Part shown: positions 6,085 to 35,820 of the stretch, in pieces
How the letters are laid out: the number at the start of each line of letters is the position of its first letter
Numbering within the stretch: position 1 is the first letter of the stretch
NCBI GenBank assembly: GCA_004299085.1
Contig: SCQV01000341.1
Location: forward strand, 1 to 36,052
Direction: 5' to 3'
Source of the DNA: Chitinophagaceae bacterium
GTDB taxonomy: Bacteria > Bacteroidota > Bacteroidia > Chitinophagales > Chitinophagaceae
DNA length: 36,052 nucleotides
Translations under genes and position numbers: made by a program
Notes under the pieces: model-generated
The model's input: the letters and a program-made list of their open reading frames with translations, nothing else
The model's database searches: none
Told to the model about the DNA's origin: nothing

Positions 6085-6173
6085 GACGATAAGTTTAATA
6101 GTAAATAAATATTGCCTACTCTGTTCTACAGGTTTTCGGTTACTCCTGTTTTTGTGCGCACAAAATATTTTTA

Positions 6174-28887: not shown

Positions 28888-29646
28888 TTATTTACAACAT
28901 AAATTCAGGTTGAGATGCTTGCAATGGTCATCTAATGGAGATGCTTCTTTTAATAAATCTCTATTCATCAGGATATTATCTTTCATTTCAATTTCTTTTT
29001 TGATCTTATCAAAATGATGATAATGAATTTCAAATATTTTCCAGAAGTGATCAGGGATTTGATTAGTTATAGGCTCACTTATTGTGCTGAGGGGCTGGTA
29101 CAAAAAATTGCCCATCTGAATTAGAATGCGCGAAATACCCAATTTCTTTATCACGTTTTCTTTATAAGTAGGACCAGGGTGAATAAGACATAACCTGTGA
29201 TAGTTAAATGGATCAATTTGTTTCTTGATTAAATCTTCCTGCTGAATAAATTTGATTCCTGAGTAATCAAGACAATATATTCTTGCTAAACCATTAGGAG
29301 AATGATCCATTGCGAATTGAATGGCTATCCTATCATCCTTGGTAAAATCCATCATACGTGATTTCAATCCAAAATGCCTCGCTATAAACCATGTTTCCCA
29401 ATCATTAAATTTATATTGGGCAAGATTATAATTATTTGCTAATTCCTTTGCAATGCCTCTCATCAGGCATTCTTCATAATCTTGAAAAGATTTTATTCTC
29501 CCAACCATATTATCATAACAAATGGACGGAATAAGTGAATATTCTGCATTTATGCCTCTATAATAATATGGACAGAACGAAGAACGGGGATAGCCACCAA
29601 AATGTTCAATGAACTCATAATAACTTGATATCTTAATTACTTTCAT
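28888..29646 (-). CDS. FRG-domain protein (cargo)
   Basis: This is a 252-residue soluble protein with the FRG domain named for a conserved F/Y-R-G motif, here YRG (29-31), followed by the companion motifs WETWFIARHFGLKSRMMDF (83-101) and AIQFA (108-112). The start is set at the ATG at 29646. FRG-domain proteins occur in mobile elements and have been linked to toxin or defence roles, but their biochemical activity is not settled. The gene is on the opposite strand from its neighbours, has its own promoter at 29687-29718, and looks like an inserted cargo gene. Confidence in the domain is good; confidence in a function is low. Confidence 0.8.
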   Translation of the reverse strand: MKVIKISSYYEFIEHFGGYPRSSFCPYYYRGINAEYSLIPSICYDNMVGRIKSFQDYEECLMRGIAKELANNYNLAQYKFNDWETWFIARHFGLKSRMMDFTKDDRIAIQFAMDHSPNGLARIYCLDYSGIKFIQQEDLIKKQIDPFNYHRLCLIHPGPTYKENVIKKLGISRILIQMGNFLYQPLSTISEPITNQIPDHFWKIFEIHYHHFDKIKKEIEMKDNILMNRDLLKEASPLDDHCKHLNLNLCCK

Positions 29647-29686
29647 CGAAGGCAAGAATACAAAATTTACTCCATTAATTCCTGCA

Positions 29687-29718
29687 CAAAGTTAATCCTC
29701 CGGCTTCAGGGCGTCCAA
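29687..29718 (-). promoter_or_regulatory. Promoter of the FRG gene
   Basis: The minus strand has TTG at 29718-29716 and TAACTTTG at 29694-29687, an exact TAnnTTTG box with 21-bp spacing. The start codon at 29646 lies about 40 bp downstream. The -33 element and spacer lie inside the left arm of an inverted repeat. Confidence 0.65.
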
Positions 29719-29799
29719 GAGCTTCCCGCATAAACGCATGGCAGCCACACAAGGCCATCTTTTATTCGTTTGCCTCTTGGACTTGCTTGCCGCAGGATT
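29694..29799. repeat. Inverted repeat between divergent FRG and RadC genes
   Basis: Left arm 29694-29721 and right arm 29774-29799 share, in inverted orientation, AATCCTsCGGC (11 bp, one mismatch) and GTCCAAGAG (9 bp, perfect), separated by 8 and 6 unpaired bases. Inside are further short stems: AAACG/CGTTT and ATGGC/GCCAT. The left arm carries the FRG -33 region; the right arm is its mirror facing RadC. Confidence 0.8.
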
Positions 29800-29846
29800 G
29801 AGATAGTTCCATAATTAATTTTTTAATCATTTAAATCAATTTAGTT

Positions 29847-30311
29847 ATGGAAACGTCAAAAAACATCTTTTGGGAAGTATCCGAAGTGGAATTAGTTTAC
29901 AAATCCCGGATCAAAGCGGCAGATCGCCCGAAAGTAAACACTTCAGCAAAAGCTTATGAAATATTCCTGCATACCTGGAATAAGGATAAAATTGAATTAT
30001 TGGAACAATTTAAAATCTTATTACTGGATAGAGCCGGTAAAGTTTTAGGTATTTGTGAAATATCAACCGGCGGAATAAGCAGCACTATCGTGGATCCTAA
30101 ACTGATATTTGTCACGGCCCTCAAAGCGCACGCCAGTTCCCTGATCCTTTGTCATAATCATCCGAGCGGAAATTTAAAGCCCAGTGAGGAGGATATTTCA
30201 TTAACAAAAAAGCTGGAACAGGCGGGAACATTTTTAGATATACCTGTCCTTGAGCATCTGATTATCTCACTCGAAGGATACTATTCTTTCACTGATGAAG
30301 GGCTGCTTTAG
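29847..30311 (+). CDS. RadC-like JAB-domain protein
   Basis: This is a 154-residue single-domain member of the RadC/JAB family common on mobile elements. The metal site is complete: His103 and His105 in CHNHPSG, then Ser113 and Asp116 with the exact JAMM spacing H-x-H-x7-S-x2-D. It lacks the N-terminal helix-hairpin-helix region of chromosomal RadC. The reaction is unknown; some members are suspected hydrolases or nucleases. It starts about 48 bp after the right arm of the inverted repeat and is followed by the first hairpin element (30330-30434). Confidence 0.9.
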   Translation: METSKNIFWEVSEVELVYKSRIKAADRPKVNTSAKAYEIFLHTWNKDKIELLEQFKILLLDRAGKVLGICEISTGGISSTIVDPKLIFVTALKAHASSLILCHNHPSGNLKPSEEDISLTKKLEQAGTFLDIPVLEHLIISLEGYYSFTDEGLL

Positions 30312-30329
30312 CCTTTCATTAATCTGTAA

Positions 30330-30434
30330 AGCAGGCAATCATTTTCCTTCGTCAATCATTGCCTGCTCTCCCAAACATTTTTAAATACCACTCCGCCACC
30401 CGAAAATCTCCGTTCCTCCGATTTACCGATGGCA
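30330..30434. repeat. Two-hairpin element, copy A
   Basis: Hairpin 1 is GCAGGCAAT (30331-30339) with ATTGCCTGC (30358-30366), closed by an extra A-T pair, with an 18-nt loop. Hairpin 2 is AAATC (30404-30408) with GATTT (30420-30424) and the loop TCCGTTCCTCC. The 37-nt linker between them differs from copy B, whereas the loops and spacing do not. It may also serve as the RadC terminator, but it lacks a T-run directly after hairpin 1. It lies between the RadC-like gene and the broken DUF1016 gene. Confidence 0.85.
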
Positions 30435-30456
30435 AACACTAAAAATCTTAGAGGTA

Positions 30457-31594
30457 TTATCCTTTCTTTAATTTTTGCTGTTCTTCAGAAATTATTTTCT
30501 TTAATTCCTGCTCACTAGGTAAGCTCACCATATACTTGGAAACAAAGACCTTTTGTGGCAATCCGGATGTGGCATATTTAACCAAAGCATTATTCTTTCC
30601 GGCACATAAAATAATACCCACCGGAGGGTTATCATTACCTTGCATTTCATTATCCATATAGTAATTCAGATACACATTCATTTGTCCTGCATCGGCATGA
30701 GAAAACTCACCAATCTTTATCCACCAGTACATGACATTTTAATATCCTGTGATAAAATACAAGGTCAATACGATAATGCTTATTATCGAATGTTATTCGC
30801 CTCTGCCTTGCTTCAAAACAAAAGCCACGTCCCGGTTCCAATAGGAAGAACTGAAGATGATTAATAATTGCTTCTTCCAGATCACTTTCAGAATAATAGG
30901 GTTTTTCCTCCAAGCCTAAAAATTCCAACATATAAGGGTTACGGAAGATATCTTCAGCTTCTATGGATACATCACCTTTATTTTCATCCATCACCTTATT
31001 TTTATCCTTGCTTAACCCGGTTCTTTCAAAAAGCATGGTATTCATGGCACGTTGCAAATCTCGCACAGACCAGTTGTTTTTAAGCGTTTGCACTTCATAA
31101 AAGGAACGTTTTAATGCCGTATCTGCTTTAAGCAGTTCAATAAAATGCGAAAAGCTTAAATTATTCAGTAATTGCTCATAATCAACACCGTTGGTATCGG
31201 GCGGTATGGAATCGGGTTTGGAGGCAGAAGATTTTGCGGACGCTGTTGGCAATCTTATAATTGGCCTAAATTCGGATAAATATGATTTTGCGGACAGTGT
31301 CCGCAAAATGTCCGGGTAAGTATTGTAAAGGTCCTTACAGATATATAAATACCGTTCTCTTATAGACTTTATTCCTTTTGCCTTGAGCCGCAACGTGATT
31401 TCTTTATAAAGTCTTTCTCCGTAATTGGCACGATCCGTCCCATTTTGTTCATATTCAACTATATAATAACCAATCATCCAGTTTCTTAATGTAAGTGCAA
31501 TGTTGACCTGCCGCTTCACCTGGTGTAGAAAGAAGTGGTTTGTTTCTGCAATAGTAGTTGCTAACAACGCTATACTGTTTAATCCCTCTGGCAT
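30457..31594 (-). pseudogene. DUF1016 (YhcG-like) PDDEXK nuclease, frameshifted
   Basis: Two overlapping minus-strand frames form one family member. The N-terminal part begins at the ATG at 31594 (MPEGLNSIALL) and includes the DUF1016 N-terminal helical domain and then the nuclease core up to RIDLVFYH. The C-terminal part continues IKIGEFSHADAGQMNVYLNYY and ends near 30457. At about 30718 the frame breaks inside what should be VDLKIGEF: only one base lies between the GAT and AAG codons, so two bases seem lost. The break hits the catalytic D/E-x-K motif. It could be a true inactivation or a sequencing error; no classic slippery heptamer is seen. Confidence 0.75.
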
Positions 31595-31716
31595 ATACAA
31601 AAAATAATTAAAACGCAATTAAATTGAGAAGATGCAAGATAGCAAAAAACTTACCCCTGATTAAGGATTATAAGATACTCGTATATAAAAACTTTAACTT
31701 TTTTTACCCTTCTATG

Positions 31717-31821
31717 AGCGGGCAATCATTTTCCTTCGTCCATCATTGCCCGCTTCTCTTTAATGATTGAAAATCTTTTCTGCCATCAGAAAAGCTCCGT
31801 TCCTCCGCTTTACAGATGGCA
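31717..31821. repeat. Two-hairpin element, copy B
   Basis: This copy is offset from copy A by exactly 1387 bp with no gap across 94 nt. Hairpin 1 is GCGGGCAAT (31718-31726) with ATTGCCCGC (31745-31753). Hairpin 2 is AAAGC (31791-31795) with GCTTT (31807-31811) and the identical 11-nt loop. Below hairpin 2 is a 7-bp stem, TGCCATC (31781-31787) with GATGGCA (31815-31821). It lies between the DUF1016 gene and the palindrome upstream of ssb. Confidence 0.85.
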
Positions 31822-31873: not shown

Positions 31874-32063
31874 TTCGGCTCGCCGGGTCGGCAAAGGTAT
31901 TTCCCTCACAAGGCAAACCCAAATTGTGACAGAGTTTGCTTCAAAAAAAATCTCCACCCCGCCGTATTCCGTGTCATAAAATAGGGTGGCGGGGTCGTAT
32001 TTTTTTTGGCAAAATTTGGGTTTGCCCCCACGCTGCATTTTTGTTGCCTATCGGCGAGCCGAA
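31874..32063. repeat. 190-bp nested palindrome upstream of ssb
   Basis: Five perfect pairs of arms nest in order: TTCGGCTCGCCG (31874-31885) with 32052-32063; GGCAA (31890-31894) with TTGCC (32044-32048); GGCAAACCCAAATT (31912-31925) with 32013-32026; CAAAAAAAAT (31942-31951) with 31999-32008; and ACCCCGCC (31956-31963) with 31988-31995. The apex is 31964-31987. It fills most of the 31822-32087 gap and ends 52 bp before the ssb start. No protein is convincing here. Confidence 0.9.
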
Positions 32064-32087
32064 TGAGGCGTTAGCCGAATGACTTTT

Positions 32088-32104: not shown

Positions 32105-32115
32105 ACTTTAATGTG

Positions 32116-32493
32116 ATGGAAATTACCGGAAGACTGACCGCAAATGCACAGGTCACAGAAATCAAAGACGGGCGTAAGGTCGTCAATTTTGATGTAGCCG
32201 TCAATGACTACTACAAAACCAAAACAGGGGAAGCAAAAACGGTTACAGCATTTTATCGTTGTGCTTATTGGATTAGCCCTCATGTAGCCAGGCTGCTTAC
32301 CAAAGGAACGCTTGTAAGCCTGTACGGAAGAACAGGAGTAGAGGCTTACATGGGTAAGGATGGAGAGCCAAGAGCCTCGCTTAAATTTCATACCTCCCAA
32401 ATCAAAATCCTGTCCTCAGCACACAATCAGGAGAATAGTAATATTCCTGAACCTGAGAGGCAAGAAAACAACACAGTCAACCTGCCATTTTAA
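32116..32493 (+). CDS. ssb: Single-stranded DNA-binding protein
   Basis: This 125-residue SSB coats single-stranded DNA during conjugative transfer and replication of the element. The OB-fold covers about residues 1-100 (MEITGRLTANAQVTEIKDGRKVVNFDVAVND, FYRCAYWISPHVARLLTKGTLVSLYGR). A short linker leads to the C-terminal tip NLPF, a weaker version of the DDLPF-type protein-interaction tail. The ATG at 32116 is used; a GTG one codon earlier is less likely. It is preceded by the large palindrome and the 17-bp leader. Confidence 0.95.
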   Translation: MEITGRLTANAQVTEIKDGRKVVNFDVAVNDYYKTKTGEAKTVTAFYRCAYWISPHVARLLTKGTLVSLYGRTGVEAYMGKDGEPRASLKFHTSQIKILSSAHNQENSNIPEPERQENNTVNLPF

Positions 32494-32532: not shown

Positions 32533-33585
32533 ATGTCACACAACATTTTTTTTAACGAGCAAACAGGCAAATACAGCTTCTTTTCCGTGAAAGAAAAAGC
32601 CTGGCACGGTTTAGGTCAAATCGTGGAAGATTACCCCACCAGTGCAGAAGCAATTAAACATGCGGGACTGGATTACCAGGTAGAAAAACGTAACCTTATA
32701 ACCGACAGTGTAAATGAGAAAGAGGACGGCATTATTTTACCTGAATTAAAAGTCCCTGATTATTTCGCTACCGTCCGTAGCGATACCCAAGCTGTATTAG
32801 GTGTAGTGGGTAAAGATTATCAAATTGTACAAAACAAGGATGCGTTTTCTTTCTTTGATGCTATTGTAGGCGGTGAGGAAGGTATTTTGTATGAAACCGC
32901 AGGAGCTTTGGGCAAAGGAGAACGTATTTTTATAACCGCTAAGCTCCCCGGCTACATCAACGTGGGCAGTAGCGACCTGATAGAAAAATACCTTTTCCTG
33001 ACCACCTCGCACGATGGTAGCGGCAGTATTATGGCTGCCTTTACACCTATACGCATAGTATGCAATAATACGCTTACGGCTGCCTTGCGCCATTGTTCCA
33101 ATGCAATCAAAATACGCCATACCTCTAATGCCAAAGAAAGGCTGGAGCAGGCGCATAAGGTGATGGGTATTTCAAACAGGCTATCTACAGAACTTGAGGG
33201 CATTTTCAATCAATGGGCAAAGGTTTCTATACAGGATAATGAAGTAAGGAAACTCATACAGTCAGCCATGACACCAAGCAAGGAAGTATGGAAGAAAATA
33301 CAGGAGGGAAACGAAGAAAATCTTTCCGCTGCTTTTAAAAACACCTGTGAAGAGGTATTTGCTTATGGCATGCTGAATGAAACCCAACAGATGGCTACCA
33401 CTAAAGGTACTTTATTCGGTGCTTTTAATGCCATAACCGGCTATTTTCAAAACGTCAGGAATTATAAAGATGATGAAGCCAAAGTGAAATCCCTCCTATT
33501 GGGTGGCACAGGAGCGTTACGTACTCAAAAGGCTTTTAACCTCTGCCTCGATTTTTCAACGCATGGTGCAGGAGCCTTGAATTAA
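32533..33585 (+). CDS. DUF932 (phage/plasmid-like) protein
   Basis: This is a 350-residue soluble protein of the phage/plasmid-like family often described as DUF932. The family hallmark KAWHGLGQIV lies near the start (about residues 22-31). It continues with YFATVRSDTQAVLGVVGKDYQIVQN, FTPIRIVCNNTLTAALR and a C-terminal YGMLNETQQMATTKGTLFGAFNAITGYFQN. The function is not established; it is recurrent in leading regions of plasmids and elements next to ssb. It is followed by a GC-rich terminator. Confidence 0.9.
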   Translation: MSHNIFFNEQTGKYSFFSVKEKAWHGLGQIVEDYPTSAEAIKHAGLDYQVEKRNLITDSVNEKEDGIILPELKVPDYFATVRSDTQAVLGVVGKDYQIVQNKDAFSFFDAIVGGEEGILYETAGALGKGERIFITAKLPGYINVGSSDLIEKYLFLTTSHDGSGSIMAAFTPIRIVCNNTLTAALRHCSNAIKIRHTSNAKERLEQAHKVMGISNRLSTELEGIFNQWAKVSIQDNEVRKLIQSAMTPSKEVWKKIQEGNEENLSAAFKNTCEEVFAYGMLNETQQMATTKGTLFGAFNAITGYFQNVRNYKDDEAKVKSLLLGGTGALRTQKAFNLCLDFSTHGAGALN

Positions 33586-34375: not shown

Positions 34376-35626
34376 TTAATAATTAAAATCGGAATGCTCT
34401 TTCTTTTGTCTTTGCTTTTCAGCCAAAACAACCTTCAGTTTATTCATATCCCTGCTGACTTTTTTTGCCAGTACTTTAGCGTAAATTTGAGTGGTCGTGA
34501 TTTTTGTATGCCCAAGCATTTTACTTAATGTTTCTATAGGCACATCATTTGCCAGTGTGATAGAAGTCGAAAATGTATGCCTTGCAATGGAGAAGGAGAG
34601 GGGAATTTTTATATCACAGAACTCTGCTATCAATTTCAGCTTATCATTGATTGTTTTGTTGGAAATATAAGGGAAAAGTGTGCCGGTTGCTATTGCTTGT
34701 GGATTATCTTTATATTTTTCAACCAATTCCAATGCTTGTGGCAATAAAGGCACTAAGACCGGATTCGTGTTTTTTTCGCGGCTCGTTTTTAACCATAATT
34801 CCCTATCAAACCCTGTTACAATTTCTTCTCTTTTCAATTTAATCGCATCTCCATAATGTGGGCCTGTATAACAACTAAATACAAATAAATCCCTGGCTAG
34901 CTGTAATGAAGGATTATTAAAGTGTGCATTTTCTATCCTTAATAATTCTTCTTCTGACAAGAAAGCTCTTTCCACCTTGTCAAATTTTAGTTTAAATAGT
35001 TCGAATGGATTTTTCTTGCACCATTCCATTGTAACAGCTAGCCTTCCTACTTTTCGGAGGCGCTCCATGTGCTTCATTACGCCGTTATTGTTGCAGGGCT
35101 TTTTGGCGTCAATGGGATGTGATAGGATAAACTGTTTTAACTCTAATAGAAATTCATAGCTCAATTCAGAAAGAAACATGTCCTTTCTTTTTTTAAAGCT
35201 AAGGAAGTTCTTAACATACGTTTCCGTAGTGAAATAATTTTTTAAAGTTCCCTTCTTTAATCCGCTGTTTTTATTATGATAAGTCATGAGTTGACAAATA
35301 GTATTGTTCTCATGGTCTATACCAAGAAATTTGTTCTTGAGTATTTCAGGGCTAACTGGTATATTTTGTAACCTCATTTCATCATAATATGACAAAATCT
35401 TACTTTTTACCCGATCAAGATATAATTGGAACGATTGTACTTGCGGGTTTTTAATTCGTTTGTCGAACGTTTCTGTCCACAATTCTGTATTAACCCGGCG
35501 CTTAAGTGAAAAATCTGAACTTTCTGCATTCACAGTAATACGACAATACAAGGGCACTTTGCCTTGTTGTTCTCTTCCACTTTTTACAAAAAATGATACT
35601 CCGAAGGTTGGGATAGTTGATTCCAT
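34376..35626 (-). CDS. int: Tyrosine recombinase (integrase), IntDOT-like
   Basis: This enzyme integrates and excises the element. The N-terminal arm-binding region is FFVKSGREQQGKVPLYCRIT, followed by a SAM-like core-binding domain. The catalytic domain holds ARHTFS and LGHTKITTTQIYAK with the nucleophile Tyr. The first catalytic arginine, usually TGLRY, is His257 here (TGPHYGD). CTnDOT integrase also lacks that Arg. The start at 35626 gives 416 residues; an earlier ATG at 35680 lies inside an 11-bp palindrome and adds residues unlike the family. Confidence 0.9.
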   Translation of the reverse strand: MESTIPTFGVSFFVKSGREQQGKVPLYCRITVNAESSDFSLKRRVNTELWTETFDKRIKNPQVQSFQLYLDRVKSKILSYYDEMRLQNIPVSPEILKNKFLGIDHENNTICQLMTYHNKNSGLKKGTLKNYFTTETYVKNFLSFKKRKDMFLSELSYEFLLELKQFILSHPIDAKKPCNNNGVMKHMERLRKVGRLAVTMEWCKKNPFELFKLKFDKVERAFLSEEELLRIENAHFNNPSLQLARDLFVFSCYTGPHYGDAIKLKREEIVTGFDRELWLKTSREKNTNPVLVPLLPQALELVEKYKDNPQAIATGTLFPYISNKTINDKLKLIAEFCDIKIPLSFSIARHTFSTSITLANDVPIETLSKMLGHTKITTTQIYAKVLAKKVSRDMNKLKVVLAEKQRQKKEHSDFNY

Positions 35627-35669
35627 ACTATTATTTTTTTGAATATTAAATTGGGTTCCTCTGATCGGT

Positions 35670-35820
35670 CCGTAGTCCATTGTTAAAATGGACTACGGAG
35701 GTACGCTAAAAACAACTCAAAAAAGCCCAAATTCAATCAAAATTTATCAACACAACTAATTGATAAACAATTAGATGAATGTTGACCGTAGTCCACAAAG
35801 AAAGGACATTTTAGTGTACC
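35670..35820. repeat. Inverted-repeat cluster upstream of the integrase
   Basis: CCGTAGTCCAT (35670-35680) and ATGGACTACGG (35688-35698) form a perfect 11-bp palindrome. CCGTAGTCCA recurs at 35786-35795. GGTACGCTAAAA (35700-35711) recurs inverted with one change at 35809-35820. Between them TTTATCAA/TTGATAAA and CTAATTG/CAATTAG give alternative hairpins. Likely roles are integrase or excisionase arm sites, or the int operator. Confidence 0.7.

Follow-up and report, generated by a model that had tools for sequence, protein, structure and literature searches.

The 190-bp nested palindrome ahead of ssb very probably serves as a single-strand DNA promoter in the leading region of a conjugative element, Frpo-like in its working and built on Bacteroidota sigma signals. 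Its transcription is untested. The whole case is computational, and no transcription data were used.

The palindrome and its surroundings

The window, that is, the whole stretch of 36,052 nucleotides that was analysed, carries the following features around the palindrome.

31874–32063, no strand assigned: whole nested palindrome, proposed single-strand promoter when the minus strand folds (from sequence and fold)
31934–32021, plus strand: conserved family core (match to model R1, 53.9 bits), with an A-tract/T-tract stem, an internal loop CTCC versus CGT and an inner stem
31942–31951, no strand assigned: A-tract arm, pairing with 31999–32008, at the position where an UP-like element would be expected (inference)
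32067–32076, plus strand: small hairpin GGCGTTAGCC between palindrome and ssb
32113–32493, plus strand: ssb (SSB family), first gene of the proposed unit (ORF list, Pfam)
32533–33585, plus strand: DUF932 gene, the usual partner of ssb in these elements (ORF list, Pfam)

An earlier sequence-only reading had described five perfect nested arm pairs of 12, 5, 14, 10 and 8 bp within these 190 bp, and all five were found. They are TTCGGCTCGCCG (31874–31885 with 32052–32063, 12 bp), GGCAA at 31890–31894 with TTGCC at 32044–32048 (5 bp), GGCAAACCCAAATT (31912–31925 with 32013–32026, 14 bp), CAAAAAAAAT (31942–31951 with 31999–32008, 10 bp), and the innermost pair ACCCCGCC/GGCGGGGT (8 bp). The distance to ssb was also given correctly: the last base of the palindrome, 32063, is followed by 52 bp and then by the ATG at 32116; a GTG in frame with ssb lies ahead of this ATG at 32113. 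Folding of both strands, proposed as a check, bore out the structure: DNA folding gave −50.1 kcal/mol (z = −6.9) for the plus strand and −52.0 kcal/mol (z = −7.7) for the minus strand, and 0 of 200 shuffles folded as well on either strand. All folds are minimum-energy DNA folds in which proteins were left out.

The window's own genome has one copy of the palindrome at this sequence level, and a second, diverged copy lies ahead of the ssb of another element (C34:2254–2342). The Rfam search of the palindrome gave no match at the gathering score and only chance matches at relaxed thresholds. A DUF805b RNA match (41 bits) near the left-hand genes (6113–6149, minus strand) was discarded as having no relation to the palindrome. 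A block similar to the small hairpin recurs in relatives. Between the palindrome and the YhcG gene, at 31717–31754, a second inverted repeat was observed; it is G+C-rich (AGCGGGCAATCAT ... ATCATTGCCCGCT), and a T-rich stretch comes after it.

Pfam confirmed SSB, DUF932, a tyrosine integrase (34376–35680), RadC, a DUF1016/YhcG nuclease and an FRG protein in the window. The DUF1016/YhcG gene (30707–31618) is the left neighbour of the palindrome and is divergent. The FRG-domain, RadC and DUF1016/YhcG nuclease genes (28888–31618) adjoin the ssb unit and are possibly defence cargo of the element. From the ORF list, we take the left-hand ORFs of the window to resemble Bacteroidota conjugative transfer genes. 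A family search found no relaxase on the window's contig.

A structured family ahead of ssb

The palindrome is a member of a structured family with compensatory changes, which is absent from Rfam. The palindrome DNA itself was matched in 16 of 394 genomes of the host family (E ≤ 0.001), mostly over short stretches, and DUF932 in 97 of the 394 (E ≤ 1e-60). Among the 110 DUF932 loci retrieved for study, 94 had ssb upstream. A conserved position before ssb in related elements had been named as a check; the structure is kept there, and also before ardA.

Two kinds of imperfect palindrome recur ahead of ssb in relatives. Type A, the window's kind, has a stem ending in AAAAT/ATTTT, an internal loop of CTCC or CTTC versus NGT, and an inner stem whose sequence is free. 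Type B differs in sequence (ACGGCATAA ... TTATTCCG), and its outer arms carry a terminal T/C-rich tract. A crude pattern count ahead of ssb assigned 35 loci to type A and 21 to type B; 7 loci showed both patterns and 31 showed neither. The loop CTCC (or CTTC) versus NGT is unpaired and kept in both arms, and it sits between the A/T stem and the free-sequence stem (31952–31955 with 31996–31998 in the window).

The fold z-score of the 300 nt before ssb had a median of −2.3 over 86 distinct loci, with 24 of the 86 below −4. Control windows 600–900 nt upstream had a median of −0.5, and 2 of 86 fell below −4 (Wilcoxon p = 1e-8 versus the pre-ssb windows). Covariation was examined in 29 type A cores. 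Paired cells made up 85% versus 77% in shuffled sets, cells changed on both sides numbered 32 versus 9.7, and the covariation score was 0.231 versus 0.091; for each of the three measures, 0 of 500 shuffles equalled the true value. All five pairs of the inner stem showed two-sided changes, and slid versions of the structure scored below the true register. The shuffle controls do not take out relatedness.

At the gathering score, Rfam matched nothing in twelve related loci except one Flavo-1 RNA in locus L125 (1554–1619, minus strand). This match is just at the gathering score and lies upstream of ssb and of the hairpin element.

Distribution and downstream genes

A covariance model, R1, was built from the type A core. 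Its matches fell in 79 of 394 genomes of the host family and in 22 of 395 sampled across the phylum (E ≤ 0.01 in both; the E-values are rough). The two match listings had 114 and 66 rows, and 140 matches were kept for the gene-context count; those left out were weaker opposite-strand echoes of the same palindrome, duplicate listings of one place, and a few weak rows. The mismatch, promoter and pairing analyses used 136 copies, namely the 140 minus four identical to another. The genomes are partly fragmentary, and many copies are related to one another.

Downstream of the 140 matches, ssb was found in 66 cases, DUF932 directly in 7 and neither in 67. The genes behind these 67 copies included DUF6943 (a single cluster of 17 ORFs), a small family without Pfam assignment whose members have about 65–93 aa (11), a weakly DnaJ-like family (4), RadC (3) and PcfK (2), as well as ArdA, whose representative matched at E = 1e-34. 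A search of the 394 genomes for ArdA returned three genes, and all three had the hairpin upstream (61.8, 60.0 and 23.9 bits); in the 23.9-bit copy, the core is degraded and the arms are kept.

The DUF6943 protein, about 140 aa long, stands behind the same kind of hairpin in L003, L004, L009, L163, L166, L168, L169, L172, L173, L175, L183, L185, L188, L199, L234 and L235. Its gene is a candidate for an early-expressed establishment or anti-defence gene. The 65–93 aa family lies right behind the hairpin (L233, L195, L196, L240), and in many loci it lies between the hairpin and ssb.

A blastn search with two copies led to Bacteroidales plasmid records from gut and oral bacteria. The element (32.7–51.2 bits) lies upstream of pcfK and pcfJ in Bacteroides finegoldii, Bacteroides fragilis, Phocaeicola vulgatus and Prevotella nigrescens, with other genes intervening in P. 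vulgatus. Searching genome contigs with the ssb protein gave one locus, and searching viral contigs with DUF932 gave two. The search of plasmids with DUF932 gave only distant proteins from other phyla.

The relaxase survey covered 16 chosen genomes with 32 elements and is thus a selected set. Of the 32 elements, 17 had a relaxase on the contig at a distance of no more than 45 kb; the 15 without one include the window's element. Of these 17 relaxases, 12 were downstream and 4 upstream, in both cases on the same strand, and 1 was downstream on the opposite strand. On contig C34, from the window's own genome, the order is element, ssb, DUF932, ParB-like, primase-like, NikA/MobC-like protein, relaxase and coupling protein. 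Genome G015 has UmuC-like, UmuD-like and SRAP proteins in between. In known leading regions, according to the part of PMC11541004 available to us, the lagging region typically contains the relaxase, while anti-defence genes, SSBs and others are oriented for transcription from the entering strand. By analogy, the gene order in C34 and G015 matches the layout of these known regions, and the oriT is inferred to lie just ahead of the NikA-like gene.

Promoter boxes in the palindrome arm

The consensus of the primary Bacteroidota promoter is TTTG at −33 and TAnnTTTG at −7 (PMC7366714, as far as its text was available), and in Flavobacterium the −7 box is placed at −12 to −5 (PMC9723704, likewise available in part). 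Both strands were scanned for this promoter, that is, for −33 TTTG with −7 TAnnTTTG. The boxes in the window, both on the minus strand and 20 nt apart, and the start predicted from them are as follows.

31920–31923 (reads 31923 to 31920), minus strand: −33 box TTTG, fully paired in the fold
31892–31899 (reads 31899 to 31892), minus strand: −7 box TACCTTTG, with TA unpaired and TTTG paired
32050–32052, plus strand: where the ssb transcript is predicted to begin, located by counting from the −7 box to the opposite side of the fold (inference, ±2 nt)

The first idea, a forward-reading promoter in the 3′ arm, was scanned for and found absent. The ssb strand showed no enrichment of the promoter within the core or on either side of it. 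The reverse strand of the 5′ arm reached a promoter score of at least 9 of 10 in 59% of the copies versus 7% of the shuffled ones. On this strand of the 5′ arm, the exact TAnnTTTG was present in 91 of the 136 copies and, by cluster, in 29 of 48; 16.4 copies were expected. Elsewhere it was seen on the other strand in 3 copies of 136, and downstream in 3 and 4. A TTG or TTTG stood 18–21 nt ahead of the −7 box, mostly 20–21 nt, in 50 of 95 boxes versus 12% expected. The exact −7 box is missing in 45 of the 136 copies, and under lenient clustering of the arms, which left only 16 groups, 7 of the 16 representatives had it. In most copies, about 30–60 nt separate the −7 box from the modelled core, which makes the R1 model and the box finding independent of each other. 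The four Bacteroides, Phocaeicola and Prevotella copies named above all carry the inverted −7 box.

In the matching arm of type B, 30 of the 40 copies carried a looser TAnnTTnG (6.35 expected), compared with 4 on the other strand; the exact TAnnTTTG was seen in only 2 of 40 (3.25 expected). The enrichment indicates that type B shares the idea with a less canonical box.

The hairpin of the incoming strand could instead be a single-strand priming site, at which primer RNA is started or primase is loaded for synthesis of the second strand and which lies near ssb only through the shared leading region. It predicts the same structure and the same strand, and a primase-like gene is present in the C34 leading region. 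However, the boxes are of the host sigma factor type rather than the primase type, and the copies lie a short way ahead of the start codon in genes as different as ssb, ardA, DUF6943 and those of pcfK units. We therefore consider a site for priming alone improbable.

Orientation and the strand likely to fold

In duplex DNA, the boxes point away from ssb. In the folded minus strand, the box arm is the non-template strand, and the arm paired with it is the template, which runs 5′-ward into the complement of ssb. It is therefore only when the single strand is folded that the boxes face ssb.

In the fold of the window, the pairing probability was 0.99–1.0 for the −33 box, 0.02–0.03 for the TA of the −7 box and 0.79–0.98 for its TTTG. 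The pairing profile used 90 of 91 box-bearing copies, and the box could be placed across the fold in 63. Over the 90 copies, pairing with the opposite arm was about 70–80% around −33, 30–45% in the first part of the −7 box and 60–70% from its end on. All four types of base pair occur among the pairs flanking the boxes. On this model, the ssb transcript is predicted to start about 65 nt ahead of the ATG, which is an inference. The A/T-rich stem of the core is located where an UP element would be; such a role is a guess. An UP element is present in Frpo candidates, according to the available portion of PMC11541004.

An ordinary duplex promoter for the left-hand gene, placed in the palindrome for an unrelated reason, would also account for boxes that face away from ssb. 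The divergent DUF1016/YhcG neighbour in the window is a gene that they could serve. Boxes with this function should track divergence, which is not so in the relatives: of the 39 copies whose upstream ORF is co-directional, 28 have the box, as do 19 of the 26 whose upstream ORF is divergent. A duplex promoter also leaves unexplained why the promoter arm pairs with the other arm by varying base pairs, and we regard it as very unlikely.

The lone mismatches within helices bear on which strand folds. Read on the ssb strand, there were 39 A.C and 12 G.T mismatches, or 21 versus 4 by cluster (p = 0.0009), and the separately folded reverse complement agreed. One stem zone is a conserved mismatch, so reading every A.C mismatch as strand evidence was cut back; without that zone, the clusters were 13 versus 4 (p = 0.049). 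The outer stems alone gave 12 versus 2 (p = 0.013) and the inner stem 3 versus 2. Type B gave 4 versus 0 in the same direction. As an A.C on the ssb strand is a milder G.T on the other, the strand complementary to the ssb mRNA appears to be the one kept foldable; the evidence is moderate.

These mismatches also count against an mRNA leader of the ssb transcript, either an attenuator or a regulator-binding RNA. A stable structure ahead of an operon and a conserved internal loop would suit such a leader, but RNA of the ssb strand should favour G.U over A.C, and the opposite was seen. Forward promoter boxes upstream are not enriched (3 of 136), and no Rfam family was found, which leaves little room for this explanation.

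A lone copy of the palindrome was noted in L002 (1501–1678, 75% identity), far from ssb, amid other repeats and beside a nucleotidyltransferase-like gene; it may be either a remnant or a sign of mobility. A mobile palindromic repeat or recombination site, to which this copy and the up to six copies per genome (G079) could point, is hardly credible, since the copies are mostly oriented and ahead of leading-type genes, the stems have diverged with pairing kept, and the window's own genome has a single copy at the exact level.

Proposed mechanism

The single-strand promoter would act as follows. During conjugation, the strand complementary to the ssb mRNA would enter the recipient; the identity of the transferred strand is inferred. 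The entering strand would fold, and its 3′ arm would provide the non-template boxes, with the −33 TTTG in perfect duplex and the first bases of the −7 box TACCTTTG open. The 5′ arm would be the template, continuous with the template of ssb. The host's RNA polymerase, carrying the Bacteroidota primary sigma factor, would start near 32050–32052; its use is likewise inferred. The inferred timing would have ssb and DUF932 transcribed ahead of second-strand synthesis, which RNA from the hairpin may also prime. Once the DNA is double-stranded, the boxes would face away from ssb, and the unit is inferred to fall silent.

Comparison with known single-strand promoters

Single-strand promoters are established for Enterobacteriaceae plasmids. 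In Frpo of plasmid F, single-stranded DNA folds into a stem-loop that rebuilds the −10 and −35 boxes, and deletion of Frpo1 or Frpo2 abolished the early expression of the genes behind (PMC9849209, from the sections available). Frpo1 and Frpo2 of plasmid F, ssi of ColIb-P9 and the hairpin family have in common that they are non-coding and stand before ssb and other leading genes; in each, a long stem-loop of one strand, which in the plasmids is the transferred one, rebuilds promoter boxes, and ssb and ardA are among the genes (for the plasmids, from those parts of PMC9849209 and PMC11541004 that were accessible).

The sequence-only reading had offered an Frpo/ssi-type promoter by analogy. This proposal gained support from the conservation, the strand and arm of the boxes, the pairing pattern, and the usual leading-region layout where a relaxase is on the contig. 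Taken by feature, the long stable stem-loop of one strand is met by the window's palindrome. Host boxes aimed downstream only in the folded strand are met with boxes of the Bacteroidota type. The genes behind include ssb (in the window and in 66 of 140 matches) and the anti-restriction gene ardA (3 of 3, one copy degraded). For a leading region with transcription towards oriT, the relaxase is downstream on the same strand in 12 of 17 relatives, and none is on the window's contig. By all testable criteria, the hairpin family works like Frpo and uses another sigma code, with transcription inferred.

The boxes differ, being TTTG/TAnnTTTG in the hairpin and TTGACA/TATAAT in Frpo/ssi. Unlike Frpo/ssi, the hairpin occurs in integrative elements and plasmids of Bacteroidota and has its own conserved core (AATCTCCACC ... 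GGTAGTATT). A distant blastn search of the window copy against 72,556 plasmid records gave no match, and the hairpin is classed as a variant working like Frpo rather than as a sequence homologue. The boxes resemble promoters of the Bacteroidota primary sigma factor (sigma-ABfr), with −7 TAnnTTTG and −33 TTTG (PMC7366714 and PMC9723704, each available in part). Unlike ordinary sigma-ABfr promoters, the hairpin's promoter is inverted relative to the gene served and usable only in the folded single strand. As in Rfam families, the element is structured and non-coding.

A large survey of leading regions used enterobacterial boxes, and the word stem "bacteroid" is absent from the portion of its text available (PMC11541004). 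Our literature search on Bacteroidota leading regions and single-strand promoters found no report linking such promoters to Bacteroidota. We think it likely that conjugative elements of Bacteroidota, from the host family to gut Bacteroides plasmids, use a class of single-strand promoters peculiar to them, which is based on the sigma signals of the phylum, arose independently of the enterobacterial Frpo and comprises at least two sequence families (A and B).

If this is true, the hairpin lets an element make protective proteins right after entry into a new cell, and it would be a sequence signal by which to find the genes expressed earliest in elements spreading among gut bacteria. The model predicts which strand is transferred, and the prediction is base-exact. 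The hairpins would mark the leading-region genes of the phylum and so point to unstudied establishment or anti-defence genes, for example DUF932, DUF6943, PcfK/PcfJ and the 65–93 aa family without Pfam assignment. A Bacteroidota version with a different sigma code would show that gene expression from single-stranded DNA on its entry is a general strategy that has evolved repeatedly.
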